A stretch of DNA of 64,000 bases. Origin: Hasllibacter sp. MH4015. Lineage in GTDB: Bacteria > Pseudomonadota > Alphaproteobacteria > Rhodobacterales > Rhodobacteraceae. Positions 2,800 through 22,938 of the stretch are shown piece after piece (position 1 is the stretch's first letter; each line of letters starts with the position of its first letter). The notes below the pieces were generated by a model, which saw only the letters and a list, made by a program, of their open reading frames with translations, searched no databases and had not been told where the DNA came from. Location: contig NZ_JAHTBK010000001.1 in the NCBI RefSeq assembly GCF_020177575.1, positions 2,167,875-2,231,874 on the forward strand, written 5' to 3'. A program made the translations under genes and the position numbers.

Positions 2800-4061
2800 C
2801 AGGCCGCCAGACGCTCCGTCACTCGGGAAAGGTCGGGGGCGGCCTCGACCGGCCCGTAAAGCGCCATGGCCGCACGACCCGCGCGGCCCAACGCGCCCGC
2901 ATGGTCCTTCAGCCCGGCCAGCGTCACCGCATCCACACGCGCCACGGTTTCCTCCAGCGGCGGCACGCGGTTCCAGATCGCCACCAGCCGCGCCAGACGT
3001 TCCGCGCGCGCCGACGGGCTTTCGAGCCCCATCAGCAAACCCGCCTTCATCTGCGCCCGCGCGCGGGCCAATTCAGCCTCCGTCATCGTCTCGGCCGAGC
3101 GGCGCAATTCATCGACTGTCAGGCCGACCAGTTCCGGCAGATCCTCAGCGGAGGTTCCGGCATAGATTGTCAGCAACCCGGTGTCGTCATAGCTGCCCAC
3201 TTGCGAATAGATCGTGTAGCACAGGCCACGCTTTTCGCGGATTTCCTGGAACAGGCGGGACGACATGCCGCCGCCAAGGGCTGTGGCAAAAATCTGCGCG
3301 GTATAGATATCGTCCGAGCGGTAGCCGGGCGCTTCAAGCGCGAGCGTGAAATGCGCCTGCTCCAGCCCTTTGACCACGCGATGTTCGCCACCGGCGAACT
3401 GGCCCGGCATTGGCACCGTGCCGGACACGGGCGTCAGGTGGCCGAACGTCGCCTCGGCCAGGCGCACAATCTCGGCGTGGTCCACGGCACCGGCAGCGGA
3501 CAGGATCAACTGTTCGGGGCCGTAATTCTCCCCCACGAAGCGGTCGAAATCGGCGCGGCCAAAGGCCTGCACCCGCTCTGCCGGGCCAAGGATCGTGCGG
3601 CCCAAGGGTTGCTCAGGATAGGCCACTTCTTGCAACCAGTCGAAGATGATGTCGTCGGGCGTATCGGCGGCCTGCCCGATTTCCTGAAGGATCACACCGC
3701 GCTCGATCTCGATCTCCTTGGGATCGAACACGGGGTTCAGGACAATGTCCCCGATCAGGTCGAGCGCAAGGGCCACATCCTGTTTCAACACCCGCGCGTA
3801 ATAAGCCGTCACTTCGCGCGACGTGTATGCGTTGATATAGCCGCCAACGTCTTCGATTTCCTCGGCGATCTGCAAGGCGCTGCGTCGCTTGGTGCCCTTG
3901 AACGCCATGTGTTCGAGGAAATGCGCGATGCCGTTCTGCTCCACCCGTTCGTGCCGCCCGCCCGCGCTGACCCAAAGGCCGAGCGCCGCGGATTCGAGCC
4001 CTGGCATATGTTCCGTCACGATGCGCAGGCCGTTCTTCAGGGTATGGATCTCAACACTCAC
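2799..4061 (-). CDS. M16 family zinc peptidase (processing-peptidase-like)
   Basis: A 420-residue insulinase/mitochondrial-processing-peptidase-type metalloprotease. The inverted zinc motif HFLEH lies at residues 47-51 and the third ligand glutamate follows in the EIERGVILQEI segment. The C-terminal M16 domain contains GGGMSSRLFQEIREKRGLCY, the R/Y substrate-binding motif. The GTG at 4061 overlaps the thrC stop (GTGA), and the protein then begins VSVEIHTLKNGLRIV as M16 proteins do, which decides the start over longer open frame. No signal peptide, so cytoplasmic. The thrC-M16 linkage is common in alphaproteobacteria; the substrate is not known from sequence. Confidence 0.92.
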   Translation of the reverse strand: MSVEIHTLKNGLRIVTEHMPGLESAALGLWVSAGGRHERVEQNGIAHFLEHMAFKGTKRRSALQIAEEIEDVGGYINAYTSREVTAYYARVLKQDVALALDLIGDIVLNPVFDPKEIEIERGVILQEIGQAADTPDDIIFDWLQEVAYPEQPLGRTILGPAERVQAFGRADFDRFVGENYGPEQLILSAAGAVDHAEIVRLAEATFGHLTPVSGTVPMPGQFAGGEHRVVKGLEQAHFTLALEAPGYRSDDIYTAQIFATALGGGMSSRLFQEIREKRGLCYTIYSQVGSYDDTGLLTIYAGTSAEDLPELVGLTVDELRRSAETMTEAELARARAQMKAGLLMGLESPSARAERLARLVAIWNRVPPLEETVARVDAVTLAGLKDHAGALGRAGRAAMALYGPVEAAPDLSRVTERLAA

Positions 4062-5446
4062 GCAAACACGCTCCCTTCGATGACGGCTTCCAGCGCCGCC
4101 AGATCGTTGTCGACGCGCTGCATCCGCTCCTCCCGCTCGAACAGGTCGGCCATGCGCGGGGGCAAGGCGGGCCGGATTCCGGTTGCCGCTTCGACCGCGT
4201 CGGGGAATTTCGCCGGATGCGCCGTGGCGAGCGTGACCAGGGGCGTCGTACCCAGATGATCCTGCGCCACATGTACGCCGACGGCGGAATGGGGGCACAG
4301 AAGCTCTCCCATCTCGGGCAAAGCGCGCTTGATCATGGCGGAGGTCTCGTCTTCCGACGCGCGGCCCGAGGTGAAGGTTTCGCGCAACGCCTCCATCGCG
4401 CCCTGGCTGATCTGGAACGATCCGGCCGTTTGCAACTCGTCCATCACCTGTGCCACGGCGCGCCCGTCGCGGCCATAGGCATCGAAAAGTGCGCGTTCGA
4501 AATTGGACGACACCTGGATATCCATCGACGGGCTGATCGAGGGCGTGACGCCTTCCTTCGTGTAGGCCGACGTGACCATGGCGCGGTGCAGGATGTCGTT
4601 TTGGTTGGTGGCGATCACCAGCTTCTCGATGGGCAGGCCCATTCGCTTGGCAATGTAGCCCGCGAAGATGTCGCCGAAATTGCCCGTGGGTACGCAAAAC
4701 GACACCGACCGGTGCGGCGCGCCCAAGGCGACAGCGGCGGAAAAGTAGTAAACCACCTGCGCCAGGACCCGCGCCCAGTTGATCGAATTCACACCGGCCA
4801 GCTTCACCCGGTCCCGGAATTCGAAATGGTTGAACATGTCCTTCAGCCGCGCCTGGCAATCATCGAAATCGCCGGTGATGGCGAGCGCGTGGGCATTGGC
4901 CTCGGTCACGGTGGTCATCTGGCGACGCTGCACGTCACTGACCCGGCCATGGGGGAACATGATGAACACGTCGACATTGTCGAGGCCGCGAAACGCCTCC
5001 ATCGCTGCCGATCCGGTGTCGCCCGACGTCGCACCCACGATAGTCACGCGGTCGCCGCGACGCGCAAGGGCGGCCTGGAACAGTTGCCCGATCAATTGCA
5101 TCGCGAAATCCTTGAACGCGAGCGTCGGCCCGTGGAACAGCTCCAGCAGGAAATGGTTCGATTGCAATTGCTTGAGCGGCGCGCGCGCGGCATGGCCGAA
5201 GCCCGCATAGGCCTTGGCGATCAGCTCCGCGAAGTCCGCATCGCTGAACGTATCGCCGATGAAGGGCCGCATCACGCGGAACGCGATCTCCTCGTAGCTG
5301 AGGCCCGCCATGGCGGCGATGTCACCGTGGCTCAGCGCGGGGATTTCGGCGGGCACGTACAGGCCCCCGTCCCGCGCCAGACCGGTCAACATCGCGTCTT
5401 CAAAGCTCAAATCCGGCGCGTTGCCGCGCGTCGAGACATACCGCAT
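4058..5446 (-). CDS. thrC: Threonine synthase
   Basis: Converts O-phospho-L-homoserine to L-threonine with PLP, the last step of threonine synthesis in the cytoplasm. The 462 residues match the long bacterial ThrC class. The N-terminus MRYVSTRG is typical, the PLP-binding lysine is K112 in PTLAFKDFAMQ, and the phosphate loop GATSGDTGSAA follows. It lies 10 bases after SURF1 and overlaps the M16 peptidase by 4 bases. It is transcribed with oxidase-assembly genes, a linkage without obvious metabolic reason. Confidence 0.97.
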   Translation of the reverse strand: MRYVSTRGNAPDLSFEDAMLTGLARDGGLYVPAEIPALSHGDIAAMAGLSYEEIAFRVMRPFIGDTFSDADFAELIAKAYAGFGHAARAPLKQLQSNHFLLELFHGPTLAFKDFAMQLIGQLFQAALARRGDRVTIVGATSGDTGSAAMEAFRGLDNVDVFIMFPHGRVSDVQRRQMTTVTEANAHALAITGDFDDCQARLKDMFNHFEFRDRVKLAGVNSINWARVLAQVVYYFSAAVALGAPHRSVSFCVPTGNFGDIFAGYIAKRMGLPIEKLVIATNQNDILHRAMVTSAYTKEGVTPSISPSMDIQVSSNFERALFDAYGRDGRAVAQVMDELQTAGSFQISQGAMEALRETFTSGRASEDETSAMIKRALPEMGELLCPHSAVGVHVAQDHLGTTPLVTLATAHPAKFPDAVEAATGIRPALPPRMADLFEREERMQRVDNDLAALEAVIEGSVFA

Positions 5447-5456
5447 TGGCTCTCCC

Positions 5457-6134
5457 TCAGGCCGTTCGTCGGGTGATACGCCAAGCCAGGAACGCTGTCA
5501 TCCCCAACCAGACGATCGCCAGCCCGAACCACTGTACCGCATAGCCCAGATGGTTGTTCGGGATCCCCTCGGACGTCACGGGCAAGGGCGTCACGGGGGC
5601 GTCCGAAACCGACATCTCGCGGGCCACGATGAAGACTGGCTCGGTGTCGAAATGGGCCGCCAACGTGTCCACGTCGCGGGCGAACCACATGTTGCGCGCG
5701 ATGTCGGGCGCGGGCGTGAACCCGTCCACCTCGTCGGGCCAATGGAGGTTGCCGATCACCGTCACCTCCCCCTCCGGCAGGGGCACGGTTTCGATGCTTT
5801 CGTGCAGGAACCCGCGATCCACCAGAACGCGCCGACCGCCCTCGGTCCCGAACGGAGAGATCAGGCGAAACCCCGGCCCCGATCCCTGGACGGAGACGAG
5901 TACACGCGCCGGGTCCTCCAGAAACTGCCCGGTCACGGTGACGGGCAGGTACCGGTCCGCCTCCCGGTCGGGGGCGGCGGGCAGGCCGACGGGGGTCGCG
6001 TCGATCCGCGCCTCGATCTCGGCCAGCACAGTTTCTTTCCAGGCGAGTCTTTGCAATTGCCATACGCCAAGCGACACCAGGATCGCCGCGCCGATGATGC
6101 CGAACAGACCAACCGTGATGATGCGACCGCCCAT
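5457..6134 (-). CDS. SURF1 family cytochrome c oxidase assembly protein
   Basis: Membrane protein that helps insert haem a into subunit I of the aa3 oxidase. A 225-residue protein with one membrane segment near residues 6-24 and a second near the C-terminus (WFGLAIVWLGMTAFLAW), with a periplasmic domain between them, the SURF1 layout. The GVWQLQRL motif after the first segment and NNHLGYAVQWFGLA before the second are family marks. The ATG at 6134 has a good ribosome site (GAAGGGG); a TTG at 6155 is possible but unnecessary. A 174-base gap without a recognisable gene separates it from coxC. Confidence 0.93.
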   Translation of the reverse strand: MGGRIITVGLFGIIGAAILVSLGVWQLQRLAWKETVLAEIEARIDATPVGLPAAPDREADRYLPVTVTGQFLEDPARVLVSVQGSGPGFRLISPFGTEGGRRVLVDRGFLHESIETVPLPEGEVTVIGNLHWPDEVDGFTPAPDIARNMWFARDVDTLAAHFDTEPVFIVAREMSVSDAPVTPLPVTSEGIPNNHLGYAVQWFGLAIVWLGMTAFLAWRITRRTA

Positions 6135-6308
6135 GGATCCCCTTCGAAGGATCAAGGGCCCACCTGTCCGGCGGGCCCCGTCATCTTGCCAAGACTTTCA
6201 AAACGTCCCACCGGCCCGGATGGGGCCACGCCCGGTCTCCGGGCGCGGGGGGCGGTGGAGGGTGGGAGGGCGAGTGCCGAAGCCTCCCCGCCAGCTCCCT
6301 ACAGGGCG

Positions 6309-7121
6309 TTACTGACCCCAGATATAGACCGCCACGAAGAGGAACAGCCACACGACGTCGACGAAGTGCCAGTACCACGCCGCCGCCTCGAACCCGATAT
6401 GCTTCTCGGCGGTGAAATGGCCCTGCCGCACGCGAAGGTAGCAGATGAACAGGAAGATCGTGCCGATCACCACGTGGAAGCCGTGGAAGCCCGTGGCCAT
6501 GAAGAAGGTGGAATAAAATTTGTCGCCGTCCGGGCCGCCGAATTGCCAATCGTGGTGGACGATCAATTCGTAATACTCGTAGGCTTGGAGAGCGGTGAAG
6601 GCGACGCCCAGGACAACCGCGCCCAGAAGCCCGTATTCCACGTCCTTGCGGTCGCCGTTATGGACCAGCGCGTGGTGCGCCCAGGTCACAAGGCAGCCCG
6701 ACAGAAGCAGGACCAGCGTGTTGATGAGCGGCAGGTGGAACGGGTCGACCTGATAGATTTCCGGCGGGATGTAGGTGGAGGCCTCGTAGCCATCCATCGG
6801 GAAAATGGCGTGTTTGAAAAACGCCCAGAACCACGCCACGAAGAACATCACCTCGGACATGATGAACATGATGAAGCCGTAGCGCAGACCGATGCGGACC
6901 ACCGGCGTGTGATCGCCGTCGCCGCTTTCATGGACCACATCCGCCCACCAGGCATACATCACGTAAAGGACCGCCACGAAGCCCGCCGCGAACAGCCACG
7001 GGCTGCCGGAATGCATCCAGTTCACCGCGCCGAACAGCATGGCGAAGGCCCCCGCCGCCGCGATCAGCGGCCAGATCGACGGCGGGAGGATGTGGTAGTC
7101 GTGGCGTTTTACGTGGGCCAT
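6309..7121 (-). CDS. ctaE: Cytochrome c oxidase subunit III
   Basis: Subunit III of the aa3-type cytochrome c oxidase, an inner-membrane protein of seven helices that stabilises the catalytic core. The 270 residues from ATG 7121 begin [18 protein letters not shown], as in bacterial subunit III; the longer frame to 7157 adds only a basic, non-conserved stretch. [21 protein letters not shown] and the terminal [13 protein letters not shown] helix carry the conserved acidic and histidine residues. It lies 52 bases after ctaG in the assembly operon. Subunit I is not in this window, as is usual for Rhodobacterales. Confidence 0.97.
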
Positions 7122-7173
7122 GGCAGGTCTCCGGTCATTGTCCTTGCGCCGCTGCACGCGCGGCGGATTGGTC

Positions 7174-7749
7174 TCAGTTCTCCGCGTCGAGCGCGGCGTA
7201 ATCTTCGGGCATGTCCATGACGTGGAACGTGTAGGACAGGGTAATGGCGGGCGTGTCGACGGTTTCGGGATCGTTCTGGATCTCGGGGTCGACGAAGAAG
7301 GTCACGGGCATCTCCACCCGCTCCCCGGGCATCAGGATCTGCTCCTCGAAGCAGAAACACGCGATCTTCACGAAATAGCCGCCGGTGTCGAAGGGGGCCA
7401 CGTTGAAACTCGCGGTTCCCGCGATGGGATAATCGGTCGGGTTATAGGCCTCGTAGAAAGCCAGCCCCGTCTCCCCGATGCGGATATCGACGTGGGGGAC
7501 CATGGGGCGGAACTCCCATGGCATGTCCGCGGCGGTGGAGGCGTCGAAGCGGATGCGGATCACATCGTCGAGGATCGTGTCGCTTTCCGCGTCCGCCGTC
7601 ACGGTCGCGCCGCCGAAGCCCGTCACCCGGCAGAACCAATCGTAGAACGGCACCGCGGCGGCGGTCATCGCGCCCATGAACACAACCACACCGCACAGCT
7701 TCAAAACGGTGCGCGCGTTGGTGTCCATGCCCTTCGGTCGTTCGCTCAT
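7174..7749 (-). CDS. ctaG: Cytochrome c oxidase assembly protein CtaG (Cox11 family)
   Basis: Copper chaperone that delivers CuB to oxidase subunit I, anchored in the inner membrane with its domain in the periplasm. The 191-residue protein has one N-terminal membrane helix (about 16-36) and the copper-binding CFCFEEQ motif with C131 and C133. The ATG overlaps the stop of the small CoxF gene by four bases (ATGA), so the two are translationally coupled. Length and motif are fully typical. Confidence 0.97.
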
Positions 7750-7952
7750 TCCGTGCTCTCCGTCACCGGCAGCATGGAGGCGCGGGGCTGGTGGTCATTG
7801 GCCTCCAGCAATCCGCCTTCGCGCACCTTCGCGATGGTCAGGCCGAACACCACGGCGCAGAACCCCAGCAGGCACAGGGCCGTGCCGACATTGCGCCCGA
7901 AGCGGCGCTTGTGGATCTCGTGAGTCTCCGCCAGGCTCTTGGTCTCCGCCAT
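7746..7952 (-). CDS. Small single-helix oxidase operon protein (CoxF-like)
   Basis: A 68-residue protein with a basic N-terminal stretch (HKRRFGRN), one membrane helix (about residues 22-42) and a short tail. It sits exactly where small CoxF-type proteins sit in alphaproteobacterial oxidase operons, between ctaB (one-base TGATG overlap) and ctaG (four-base overlap). The biochemical role of these small proteins is not settled; an assembly role is inferred from position and from the tight coupling on both sides. Confidence 0.8.
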   Translation of the reverse strand: MAETKSLAETHEIHKRRFGRNVGTALCLLGFCAVVFGLTIAKVREGGLLEANDHQPRASMLPVTESTE

Positions 7953-18693: not shown

Positions 18694-20466
18694 TCACTCC
18701 TGCGGAATGACCCGCAGCCCAAGCTCCATCAACTGATCCGAGGTGGGATCGGACGGCGCGTTCATCATCAGATCCTCGGCCCGCTGGTTCATCGGGAACA
18801 GGATCACCTCGCGGATATTGGCCGTGTCGGCCAGCAGCATCACGATCCGGTCGATCCCCGCCGCACATCCACCGTGGGGCGGCGCGCCGTATTGGAACGC
18901 GTTGACCATCCCGCCGAACCGCTTGCGCACCTCGTCCGCGCCGTACCCCGCCAGCTCGAACGCTTTGAACATGATATCCGGGCGGTGGTTCCGGATCGCG
19001 CCCGACACAAGCTCATACCCGTTACAAGCCAGGTCATACTGGTAGCCCAGAACCGACAACGGATCACCGTCCAGCGCGTCGATCCCGCCCTGCGGCATCG
19101 AAAACGGGTTGTGGGAGAAGTCGATCTTCCCGTCCTCGTCGGCCTCGTACATCGGAAAATCGACGATCCAGGCAAAGGCGAAGCGGTTCTGCTCGGTCAG
19201 GCCAAGCTCATCCCCGATCACCACGCGCGCCCGGCCCGCGACGGCCTCGAACTCGGCGGGTTTGCCTGCCAGGAAGAAGGCCGCATCGCCCACGCCCAAA
19301 CCAAGCTGCTCGCGGATCGCCTCCGTCCGTTCGGGCCCGATATTCTTGGCCAGCGGGCCTGCGGCCTCCATCCCCTCGCCTTGATCGCGCCAGAAGATGT
19401 ACCCCATGCCCGGCAGCCCCTGTTCCTGGGCAAACTTGTTCATCCGGTCGCAGAACTTCCGCGACCCGCCGCCGGGGGCGGGAATGGCGCGGACCTGGGT
19501 GCCGTCCTGCTCCAGCAGGTTTGCGAAGATCGCAAAGCCGGAACCCGCGAAATGCTCGCTGACGATCTGCATCTTGATCGGGTTGCGCAGGTCGGGCTTG
19601 TCGGTGCCGTACCACAAAGCCGCGTCGGCATAGGAGATTTGCGGCCAGTTCTGGTCGACAGAGGCGCCGTCCCCGAACTCCTCGAACACGCCGCGCAGGA
19701 CGGGCTCCACCGTGTCGAACACGTCTTGCTGCTCGACAAAGGACATCTCCATATCCAGCTGGTAGAAATCGGTGGGCGAGCGGTCGGCGCGCGGGTCTTC
19801 ATCCCGGAAACACGGCGCGATCTGGAAATACTTGTCGAAACCCGACACCATCAGCAGCTGTTTGAATTGCTGCGGGGCCTGGGGCAGCGCGTAGAACTTG
19901 CCCGGATGCAGGCGCGACGGCACCAGGAAATCGCGCGCGCCTTCGGGGCTGGACGCGGTGATGATCGGGGTCTGGAACTCGCGGAAATCAATGTCCCACA
20001 TGCGTTTGCGGATCGAGGCCACGACGTCCGAGCGCAGAACCATGTTGCGCTGCATCACGTCGCGGCGCAGGTCGAGGTAGCGATAGCGCAACCGCGTCTC
20101 TTCGGGGTATTCCTGATCGCCGAAAACCTGCAAGGGCAGCTCCGCCGCCGCGCCAAGCACCTCCATGTCGCGGATGAACACCTCGATCTCGCCGGTCGGC
20201 AGCTTGGGGTTCACCAGCTCCGGATCGCGGGCCTTCACCGTGCCGTCGATGCGGATGCAATATTCGGCGCGCAGCTTCTCCACCTGGGAGAAAACCGGGC
20301 TGTCGGGGTCGCAAAGCACCTGCGTGATCCCGAAATGGTCGCGCAGGTCGATGAAGATCACACCCCCGTGGTCGCGGCGGCGATGCACCCAGCCGGACAG
20401 GCGGATCGTGTCACCGACATGGGTCGCATTCAGGTCGGCGCAGGTGTGGCTGCGATAGGCGTGCAT
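18694..20466 (-). CDS. aspS: Aspartyl-tRNA synthetase
   Basis: Class II synthetase for tRNA-Asp; in alphaproteobacteria it is often non-discriminating and also makes Asp-tRNA-Asn. ATG 20466 gives 590 residues, beginning [19 protein letters not shown]. The N-terminal anticodon-binding OB domain has [19 protein letters not shown], the catalytic core has motif 2 ([19 protein letters not shown]), an inserted GAD-type domain (about 290-420) is present, and motif 3 GIDRIVMLL is near the end. A longer open frame to 20553 is not conserved. Confidence 0.97.
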
Positions 20467-20574
20467 GGAGGTTCTCCGGGTATCAGGTTGCGCCCGGATA
20501 GACCGTCCGGGGCGGGTGAAGTCAAGACCACGCGGCGCGGGCCGGACGGGCATCTGGGCAGCGGGCGTAGAGGG

Positions 20575-21412: not shown

Positions 21413-21751
<339 letters not shown>

Positions 21752-21829
21752 TCAAAGTCTTTACGGTTGGTAATACGCCCGGCCCCGTGTTTCCAGCGCG
21801 AAAGCACCGGCTTGTGTCGGCGGGGTTTT

Positions 21830-21844
21830 GTTCTATCTTTGTTC
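21830..21844 (+). promoter_or_regulatory. SOS (LexA) box, GTTC-N7-GTTC
   Basis: GTTC at 21830-21833, seven bases (TATCTTT), GTTC at 21841-21844: an exact match to the direct-repeat LexA operator known from alphaproteobacteria. It ends two bases before the ATG of the DnaE2-like OB gene and lies 94 bases upstream of the divergent ferredoxin. A match of eight fixed bases could occur by chance once or twice in 64 kb, but its position against a DnaE2-derived gene, a standard SOS target, makes it credible. Confidence 0.65.
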
Positions 21845-21846
21845 GC

Positions 21847-22227
21847 ATGGAGCCCGACATCCGCCCCCCCGATTGGCCAAGGCCGCCCGATTGCCTGCCC
21901 CACCACATGCTGCACCTGCCCCATGAGGGCGCGCGGATCTGCGTGGCGGGGCTGGTGCTGGTGCGTCAAAGGCCCGGAACCGCCAAGGGCGTGATCTTCA
22001 TCACGCTGGAGGACGAATTCGGCGTCTGCAACGTGGTGGTTTGGCAAAAGCTCTACCAGAAATACCGCCGCGCGGTGATTTCGGGGCGGCTTCTTCGCGT
22101 GACCGGCCGCATCCAGAGGGAGGCGGGCGTTGTCCATGTCGTGGCGGAACATGTGGAGGATATCTCCCCCATGCTCGACGAACTGGTCCGCCTCCACGAA
22201 GGGGCCAAGGCCGGGGATCAGCCATAG
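21847..22227 (+). CDS. Stand-alone OB-fold protein resembling the C-terminus of DnaE2
   Basis: A 126-residue protein whose residues about 28-105 read like the terminal OB-fold region of the error-prone polymerase DnaE2 (ImuC): [20 protein letters not shown], then [14 protein letters not shown] and [12 protein letters not shown]. All polymerase domains are missing and no DnaE2 remnant is visible in the 110 bases upstream. It either is the relic of a lost imuA-imuB-dnaE2 cassette or an independent single-strand-binding protein. The start at 21847 directly follows the SOS box, with no ribosome site, suggesting a leaderless message; ATG 21787 would place the box inside the gene. There is no frame damage, so the gene looks maintained. 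Confidence 0.75.
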
Positions 22228-22362: not shown

Positions 22363-22938
22363 ATGCGCAACATCCTTCTACTGGCCGCCCTTGGCGGTCT
22401 CTCGGCGTGCCAGGCGACCGCGCCGGGTGGCGACAGCTTCACCTCCGTCATTGATCCGGTCACGACCTCGGGCGCGTCCGGTGTGCAGGTCACGCGCGGC
22501 TTCGGCCCGCCCGACGCCGACCCGGCCAGCTGCTACGGGCGGGAGGTCGACCCCGCGGTGATCGAGACCGTGACCGAGCAGATCCTGGTGGAACCCGAAC
22601 AGCTGGACCGCAACGGCAATATCCGCCGCCCCGCCGTGTTCGTGACGGCGACCGAGCAGCGGATCGTGGAGGATCGCACCGAGACCTGGTTCGAGACGCC
22701 CTGCGCGATGGAGGGCAACGCCGACTACATCGCCACCCTGCAACGGGCGCTGGCCGCGCGGGGGCATTACACCGGCCCCGTCACCGGCCGCATGGACCGC
22801 GCCACCGTGCAGGCCGTACGCGCCTATCAACAGCCCCAAGGCCTCGACAGCGGGGTGCTCAGCCTCGCCGCCGCGCGCCAATTGGGGTTATCGGTTTGGG
22901 ATCCGGAGCTTGCCGCCGGCACGTCCACGGACGGCTGA
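22363..22938 (+). CDS. Peptidoglycan-binding lipoprotein
   Basis: A 191-residue exported lipoprotein: a short signal peptide ends in the lipobox LSAC with C16 as lipidation site. The middle holds a conserved region with two cysteines (CYGREVDP and ETPCAME) and the C-terminal part (about 118-178) is a peptidoglycan_binding_1 domain (TLQRALAARGHYTGPVTGRMD, then TVQAVRAYQQPQGL). Residue +2 after the lipid cysteine is glutamine, consistent with outer-membrane sorting. It probably tethers envelope layers. Followed by a strong terminator at 22964. Confidence 0.88.
   Translation: MRNILLLAALGGLSACQATAPGGDSFTSVIDPVTTSGASGVQVTRGFGPPDADPASCYGREVDPAVIETVTEQILVEPEQLDRNGNIRRPAVFVTATEQRIVEDRTETWFETPCAMEGNADYIATLQRALAARGHYTGPVTGRMDRATVQAVRAYQQPQGLDSGVLSLAAARQLGLSVWDPELAAGTSTDG

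Follow-up and report, generated by a model that had tools for sequence, protein, structure and literature searches.

The gene of 126 codons in the window (the whole stretch of 64 kb that was analysed) raises the question why a single domain of an error-prone DNA polymerase is encoded on its own, directly behind a LexA-type (SOS) box. A preliminary description had reported an exact GTTC-N7-GTTC box two nucleotides before the ATG, a product restricted to the C-terminal OB domain of a DnaE2 and an intact frame. These three observations were confirmed (Table 1). The box GTTCTATCTTTGTTC is the sole exact GTTCN7GTTC of the window, and no internal stop codon was found in the gene. A longer frame starting with GTG at 21787 (146 aa) was rejected, because the start codon just 3' of the box is kept in most homologues.

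Table 1 Features of the OB gene locus (positions in the window)
Feature	Position	Strand	Basis or remark
Gene which we take to be 2Fe-2S ferredoxin-like, divergent neighbour of the OB gene	21413..21736	-	homologue in 160/164 OB loci
-35-like element TTGTGT	21812..21817	+	conserved TTG/TGG; putative -35 role
LexA-type (SOS) box GTTCTATCTTTGTTC	21830..21844	+	exact match; conserved before homologues
-10-like TATCTT inside the box	21834..21839	+	conserved TATnTT; putative promoter role
DnaE2-type OB domain gene with new N-terminal WPRPP segment (first base of ATG to last base of stop codon)	21847..22227	+	family models, OB-fold prediction, 84 loci
Presumably peptidoglycan-binding-like gene, next 3' of the OB gene	22363..22938	+	in 89/164 OB loci

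Residues 21-113 of the product were aligned to positions 947-1039 of the 1047 positions of the NCBIfam model NF004225 (error-prone DNA polymerase) with an E value of 9.4e-32 and 110 bits; the cut-off of 939 bits, which applies to the whole protein, was not reached. Judged by this match, the protein is a fragment of a DnaE2 comprising the OB region only, and not a whole DnaE2. The Pfam OB-fold model PF01336 matched above its cut-off of 27 (46.7 bits, E 3.2e-12). An AlphaFold2 model (69 sequences) with a mean pLDDT of 91 and a pTM of 0.81 showed an OB fold, and a Foldseek search with it gave OB-fold matches from E 5.4e-06, with OB proteins such as AspRS, Stn1 and RPA at the top. When the sequence profile was compared with the PDB, the best match was the OB domain of DNA polymerase III alpha (5fku chain A, residues 984-1074; see also 2hpi), which was weak (E 0.02). 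That domain is located within the polymerase chain, whereas the OB domain described here is separate. The gene aspS is located near the OB gene (window 18694-20553, minus strand), and the OB domain of AspRS has weak similarity to the DnaE2 model (E 1e-4). The closeness of the two genes is probably accidental, because aspS was found in 5/164 OB loci, a count limited by flanks of 1.5-3 kb.

Stand-alone OB domains (84) were compared with those of full-length DnaE2 (46). More than 85% conservation in both sets was observed for G35, R40, Q41, P43, G44, A46, G48, F51, E55, D56, E57, N62, W66, R74, R81, G87, H97, D105 and L110. Conservation in the stand-alone proteins only was observed for W10, R12, P13, P14, P25, P26 and A29. 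The stand-alone OB protein has a new N-terminal WPRPP segment, which was not observed in full-length DnaE2.

The proposal that the OB domain had remained without the polymerase could not be upheld, and the other possibility mentioned in the preliminary description, a DnaE2 elsewhere, was found to apply. In this genome, a DnaE2 of 995 aa is encoded at C1:3428047-3430905; it reached 1213.7 bits with NF004225, above the cut-off, and covered model positions 4-938 of 1047. Exactly the OB domain is missing from this chain; its C-terminal tail is unrelated and has no OB similarity. This dnaE2 has its own near-box, GAACAAAACGTGAAT, an imperfect site matching 7/8 bases.

To learn how widely the split is distributed, 198 Rhodobacteraceae genomes, each of a different genus, were surveyed. 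A DnaE2 ending near model position 940 was detected in 88/198 genomes (83 near-complete, 5 from contig pieces), only full-length DnaE2 in another 88/198 (5 in pieces) and neither type in 22/198. The stand-alone OB gene was present in 82/88 genomes with OB-less DnaE2, in 0/88 with full-length DnaE2 only and in 2/22 with neither. The latter two are G061, in which DnaE2 is a piece at a contig edge, and G051 (L054, L177, L380; 7 contigs), in which a boxed OB gene and a match to ImuB were found, whereas no DnaE2 reached the cut-off. Genome G009 seemed at first to have an OB-less DnaE2 but was counted as full-length only, because its contig C2 starts with the OB region and ends with the polymerase, as an opened circle would. 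Both forms occur in G035, the split form on a 3.79-Mb contig (L113, L143) and the full-length gene on one with 126,304 bases (L239). No OB gene was found, even by profile search, in six genomes with OB-less DnaE2 (G044, G064, G098, G142, G162 and G180). These are drafts of 100 to 490 contigs, and since four of them are 95-99% complete, the OB gene may be dispensable.

The closest relatives among named genomes are labelled Roseicyclus (82-85% identity), and further named matches were obtained from Ruegeria, Roseovarius, Marivita, Shimia, Rhodobacter sp. SW2 and others. A survey of 385 genomes of the class was also made. Among the matches listed outside Rhodobacteraceae, most were in reading frames comparable to whole polymerases, with about 1000 or more residues, and about ten were in shorter frames, several of them close to a contig start; in the one short-frame case that was inspected (G496) the cassette is in pieces. 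The OB region of DnaE2 matched 811 plasmid records. Among the 20 listed, most are annotated as error-prone DNA polymerase, an annotation also carried by the match on a plasmid of Dinoroseobacter shibae DFL 12. One phage record gave a weak match.

A neutral relic, i.e. a fragment and a box surviving by chance before their loss, would agree with the fact that gene fission often comes before decay and with the six genomes in which the OB gene was not found. We regard this explanation as very improbable. It is contradicted by the selection test, as dN was 0.09-0.20 and dS 0.45-1.56 in eight pairs, which indicates purifying selection on the OB gene. Moreover, the frames were intact in all 84 loci read and the box is conserved. 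Decay of the OB frame in relatives, named in the preliminary description as an objection, was thus not observed.

The co-occurrence of the OB gene with OB-less DnaE2 was examined on a DnaE1 tree of 21 genomes. Genomes without DnaE2 (G167, G195, G157) were nested among the OB-less ones, and so were two with full-length DnaE2 (G091, G022); G167 stands beside the genome studied here with a support of 100/100. The OB gene is absent from all five. The contrast test was carried out on 19 rows, two of undetermined type being left out, and gave four supported independent contrasts, with the OB gene in the same direction in 3.6 on average and in the opposite direction in 0 (sign test, p 0.125). This result is only suggestive of an association of the OB gene with OB-less DnaE2 beyond shared ancestry, G195 and G157 being drafts and G051 a counter-example. 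It is possible that a single ancestral event explains most of the co-occurrence. The tree of the flanking genes was not used as a test; its support was weak and two traits were equal by construction.

These data also bear on the possibility that the freed OB domain took an SOS job of its own, as a small ssDNA-binding protein or as a partner of ImuB or RecA, independent of the DnaE2 without OB domain. Such a role would account for G051, where the OB gene and an ImuB match are retained without DnaE2, for the six genomes with OB-less DnaE2 in which the gene was not found and for the conserved segment gained by the stand-alone protein. However, an independent role would not lead one to expect that the gene is absent from every genome with full-length DnaE2 only, that it follows OB-less DnaE2 in the few supported contrasts, or that the residues conserved in full-length OB domains are retained. 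Thus, we consider an independent role rather unlikely, and a function together with the OB-less polymerase is preferred here.

Concerning the origin of the split, 43 of the 44 OB-less sequences formed one group in a DnaE2 tree of 94 rows (support 0.87), and the remaining one, of G194 (L164), was grouped with full-length sequences (support 0.80). When all 18 OB-less rows in a set of 45 were constrained to one group, the cost was 1.4 log-likelihood units (p-AU 0.47). A single origin of OB-less DnaE2 is therefore compatible with the tree test, which neither rejects nor proves it. The locus of G194 (L164 3627-8370) looks like an intermediate, a snapshot of the fission of dnaE2. There, dnaE2 (3627-6857) is followed by a reversed gene (6929-7771) and then by an OB gene on the dnaE2 strand. 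This OB gene encodes 185 aa, has its ATG 5 nt 3' of an exact box and retains the DnaE2 C-terminus LFPSRDFH. A long N-terminal extension was found in the OB gene of G083 (L371), with the box 5 nt before the extended ATG. By eye, a stretch of this extension (AAHF...) resembles the DnaE2 tail of G194. Five of the 44 OB-less DnaE2 (L100, L174, L176, L181, L186) have HPRNxRHF-like residues at their end, possibly left over from the HPRDxxxxxPSRDFH terminus of full-length DnaE2, again judged by eye.

The present site of the OB gene was compared in 164 OB loci, i.e. a first set of 84 and a set of 80 from named genomes, partly of the same organisms. The ferredoxin homologue is directly divergent in 154 of these loci and missing at L164, L168 (G083), L254 and L295. 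Ferredoxin loci of 17 genomes without OB-less DnaE2 contained no OB gene in the stretch read to the right, and no box within up to 700 nt of it (in one case 420), and in 11/17 a homologue of the gene at 22363..22938 directly follows the ferredoxin gene. At the ferredoxin locus the OB gene is absent in G194 and G083 and present with its box in G035. It follows from these empty sites that the OB gene is an insertion next to the ferredoxin gene; in the simplest scenario, the insertion came later than the split. The genome comparison thus documents both the fission of dnaE2 and the relocation of the detached piece.

The box itself requires a cautious evaluation, as the pattern alone occurs at chance level: one exact copy in the window compared with 1.63 expected, and 93 copies in the genome compared with 80 of the reversed pattern. 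Its placement before the OB gene is beyond chance. A forward exact box was detected within 200 nt 5' of the protein match in 80/84 homologous loci in other genera and in 76/80 loci of the second set from named genomes; the sets overlap, with 64/80 named-set loci being new by sequence. Random 200-nt stretches of the same loci gave 2/1557 and 2/1551, and the reversed pattern 0 and 0. The search of relatives for box and short gene, suggested in the preliminary description, hence gave a positive result; homologues that lack the box, which it had raised as a counter-argument, are the exception.

These 200-nt counts were made without choosing start codons. When the first start codon 3' of the box was taken as start, 66/80 boxes ended 1-3 nt before it, and the box was present within 80 nt of 3/562 other ATG starts of these loci; short gaps and 80-nt counts obtained with this rule lean on the box. 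The blind rule 'first ATG of the frame' gave a box within 80 nt in 52/84 and 42/80 loci, with a gap of 1-3 nt in 42 and 38. These counts are lower because many frames stay open 5' of the box. Among the misses in the set of 84, G147 and G056 are without exact box and G014 has a 7/8 site. G083 (L168) was also scored as a miss, having a longer OB frame with an exact box 5 nt before an ATG further upstream (counted by hand). For the named set, L258 was positive in the count based on start codons and not in the start-free count, and L265, L295 and L309 were negative in both; L295 (Albimonas) is probably a full-length DnaE2, because the match is located in a frame of more than 600 aa. G178:C29 (terminal part of a full-length DnaE2, located close to the end of a contig) and L177 (repeat of L054) were left out.

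An artefact, either a chance box or a dnaE2 end severed by an assembly or sequencing error, might be supposed from the near-chance frequency of the pattern in the genome. This explanation is refuted by the placement and conservation of the box, by the same arrangement in many independent assemblies and by the location of the polymerase gene 1.24 Mb away on the same 3.68-Mb contig, and we assign it next to no probability. An adjacent dnaE2 split by sequencing error, which the preliminary description had considered, is likewise not present.

Alignment of 80 promoters showed a conserved TTG or TGG at 18 to 16 nt 5' of the box and a conserved TATnTT inside it. From these elements, transcription is predicted to begin at or close to the A of the ATG. 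The OB mRNA is probably leaderless, because the two bases between box and ATG leave no room for a ribosome-binding site. Other exact copies of the pattern in the genome are located near genes matching lexA, recA, DNA polymerase IV, pdeM and two radical-SAM families, as judged from the first 130 residues of each product. Given these neighbours, GTTCN7GTTC makes sense as a LexA box in this organism. A box in the promoter that is conserved in relatives, the sequence criterion of a LexA regulon, was thus found for the OB gene, and LexA would be expected to bind there and DNA damage to induce the gene. The layout of the OB gene is shared by a radical-SAM DNA modification/repair gene, with an ATG 2 nt 3' of an exact box (C1:1246774-1246788). 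Another box (C1:382664-382678) overlaps with the start of a gene resembling pdeM (ligase-associated endonuclease).

Candidates for all parts of the ImuA-ImuB-DnaE2 mutasome are present in the genome and dispersed: imuA at about 2.163 Mb, the OB gene at 2.190 Mb, dnaE2 at 3.428 Mb and imuB at 3.485 Mb of one contig. Among the ORFs in the 13 kb read around dnaE2, imuA and imuB were not recognised. For the imuB match (C1:3484870-3486384), an exact box overlaps with the first of the possible starts. An exact box near imuB was also found in 4/4 other genomes with OB-less DnaE2 that were checked, located 28, 31 and 130 nt 5' of the first possible start or within an over-long frame. The imuA candidate (209 aa) begins near C1:2162786, with an exact box 16 nt 5' of this start, and exact boxes were found near 3/3 imuA candidates checked (for the two others just upstream of extrapolated starts). 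The candidate of 209 aa matched NF033429 below the cut-off, like every match in Rhodobacteraceae; because this model also matches RecA, its 196/198 positive genomes cannot be taken as the number with ImuA. The flanks (a few kb) of 43 OB-less dnaE2 genes from other genomes contained the OB gene in one case, imuB in three and imuA in none.

For OB-less dnaE2 genes, a site of at least 7/8 bases was detected within 80 nt in 40/44 loci (13 exact), compared with 79/858 for control ATG starts of the loci, among which the starts of dnaE2 are counted as well. Full-length dnaE2 genes with enough upstream sequence had a site in 1/42; several of their starts are uncertain, and the genes follow imuB.

In our opinion it is probable that DnaE2 was split and that its OB domain acts in trans as a separately LexA-controlled part of the mutasome. 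In an ancestor within Rhodobacteraceae the 3' end of dnaE2, encoding the OB domain, was separated from the polymerase gene, and the detached piece later moved to the site beside the ferredoxin gene. DnaE2 now stops short of the OB domain, which is encoded as a separate small protein. DNA damage would switch on imuA, imuB, dnaE2 and the OB gene together; joint induction is to be expected because each of them has a LexA-type box or near-box. The OB protein would most likely join the ImuA-ImuB-DnaE2 complex, by assembly with DnaE2 or ImuB, and through binding of ssDNA supply the single-strand contact lost by the polymerase. The conserved WPRPP segment may be the docking part. Points against this reading are the small size of the stand-alone OB protein, the imperfect site of dnaE2 in this genome, the case of G051 and the six genomes with OB-less DnaE2 in which the OB gene was not found. 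For the more specific picture of a dispersed four-part SOS mutasome, in which ImuA, ImuB and OB-less DnaE2 are joined by a probably leaderless OB subunit that docks via its N-terminal segment and gates mutagenic synthesis, arguments for and against are about balanced. If it is true, the supply of a 126-residue protein would gate mutagenic synthesis, and a domain of a C-family polymerase would have become a regulatory subunit.

Compared with the LexA-controlled ImuA-ImuB-DnaE2 (ImuC) mutasome, the system described here has candidates for all three proteins, LexA-type boxes and a DnaE2 above the family cut-off. In contrast to the cassette, the genes stand at separate sites and a fourth gene bears the OB domain. 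Several DnaE2 without OB domain were reported by Timinskas et al. (PMC3919608), and the cassette was described there as contiguous or split; that the OB domain is encoded elsewhere, as found here, is not stated in the part of that article available. Stand-alone ImuB-C proteins are known from variant mutasomes (PMC6511836, PMC12926913, as far as available). There too a mutasome domain forms a protein of its own, but according to the available parts the separate piece is the C-terminal region of ImuB and not the OB domain of DnaE2. Searches of the open-access PMC literature gave no example of a DnaE2 split from an OB domain that is retained in trans, and the DnaE2 OB domain in trans is not mentioned in the available parts of PMC3919608, PMC6511836, PMC12926913, PMC10421592, PMC9426580 and PMC6473078. 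As far as sequence comparison can tell, the parts are known and the arrangement is new: a split DnaE2 with its OB domain as a separately boxed gene in many genera, likely functioning in trans.

For annotation this means that searches for dnaE2 or for a contiguous cassette miss the fourth part. As long as polymerase and OB domain form one chain, the role of this domain in a translesion DnaE2 is difficult to examine. Genome G035 contains both forms of DnaE2, which might be compared in one strain. Through the natural split, a large and mostly marine group of bacteria has the OB domain as a gene of its own, which can be deleted and is under separate control.
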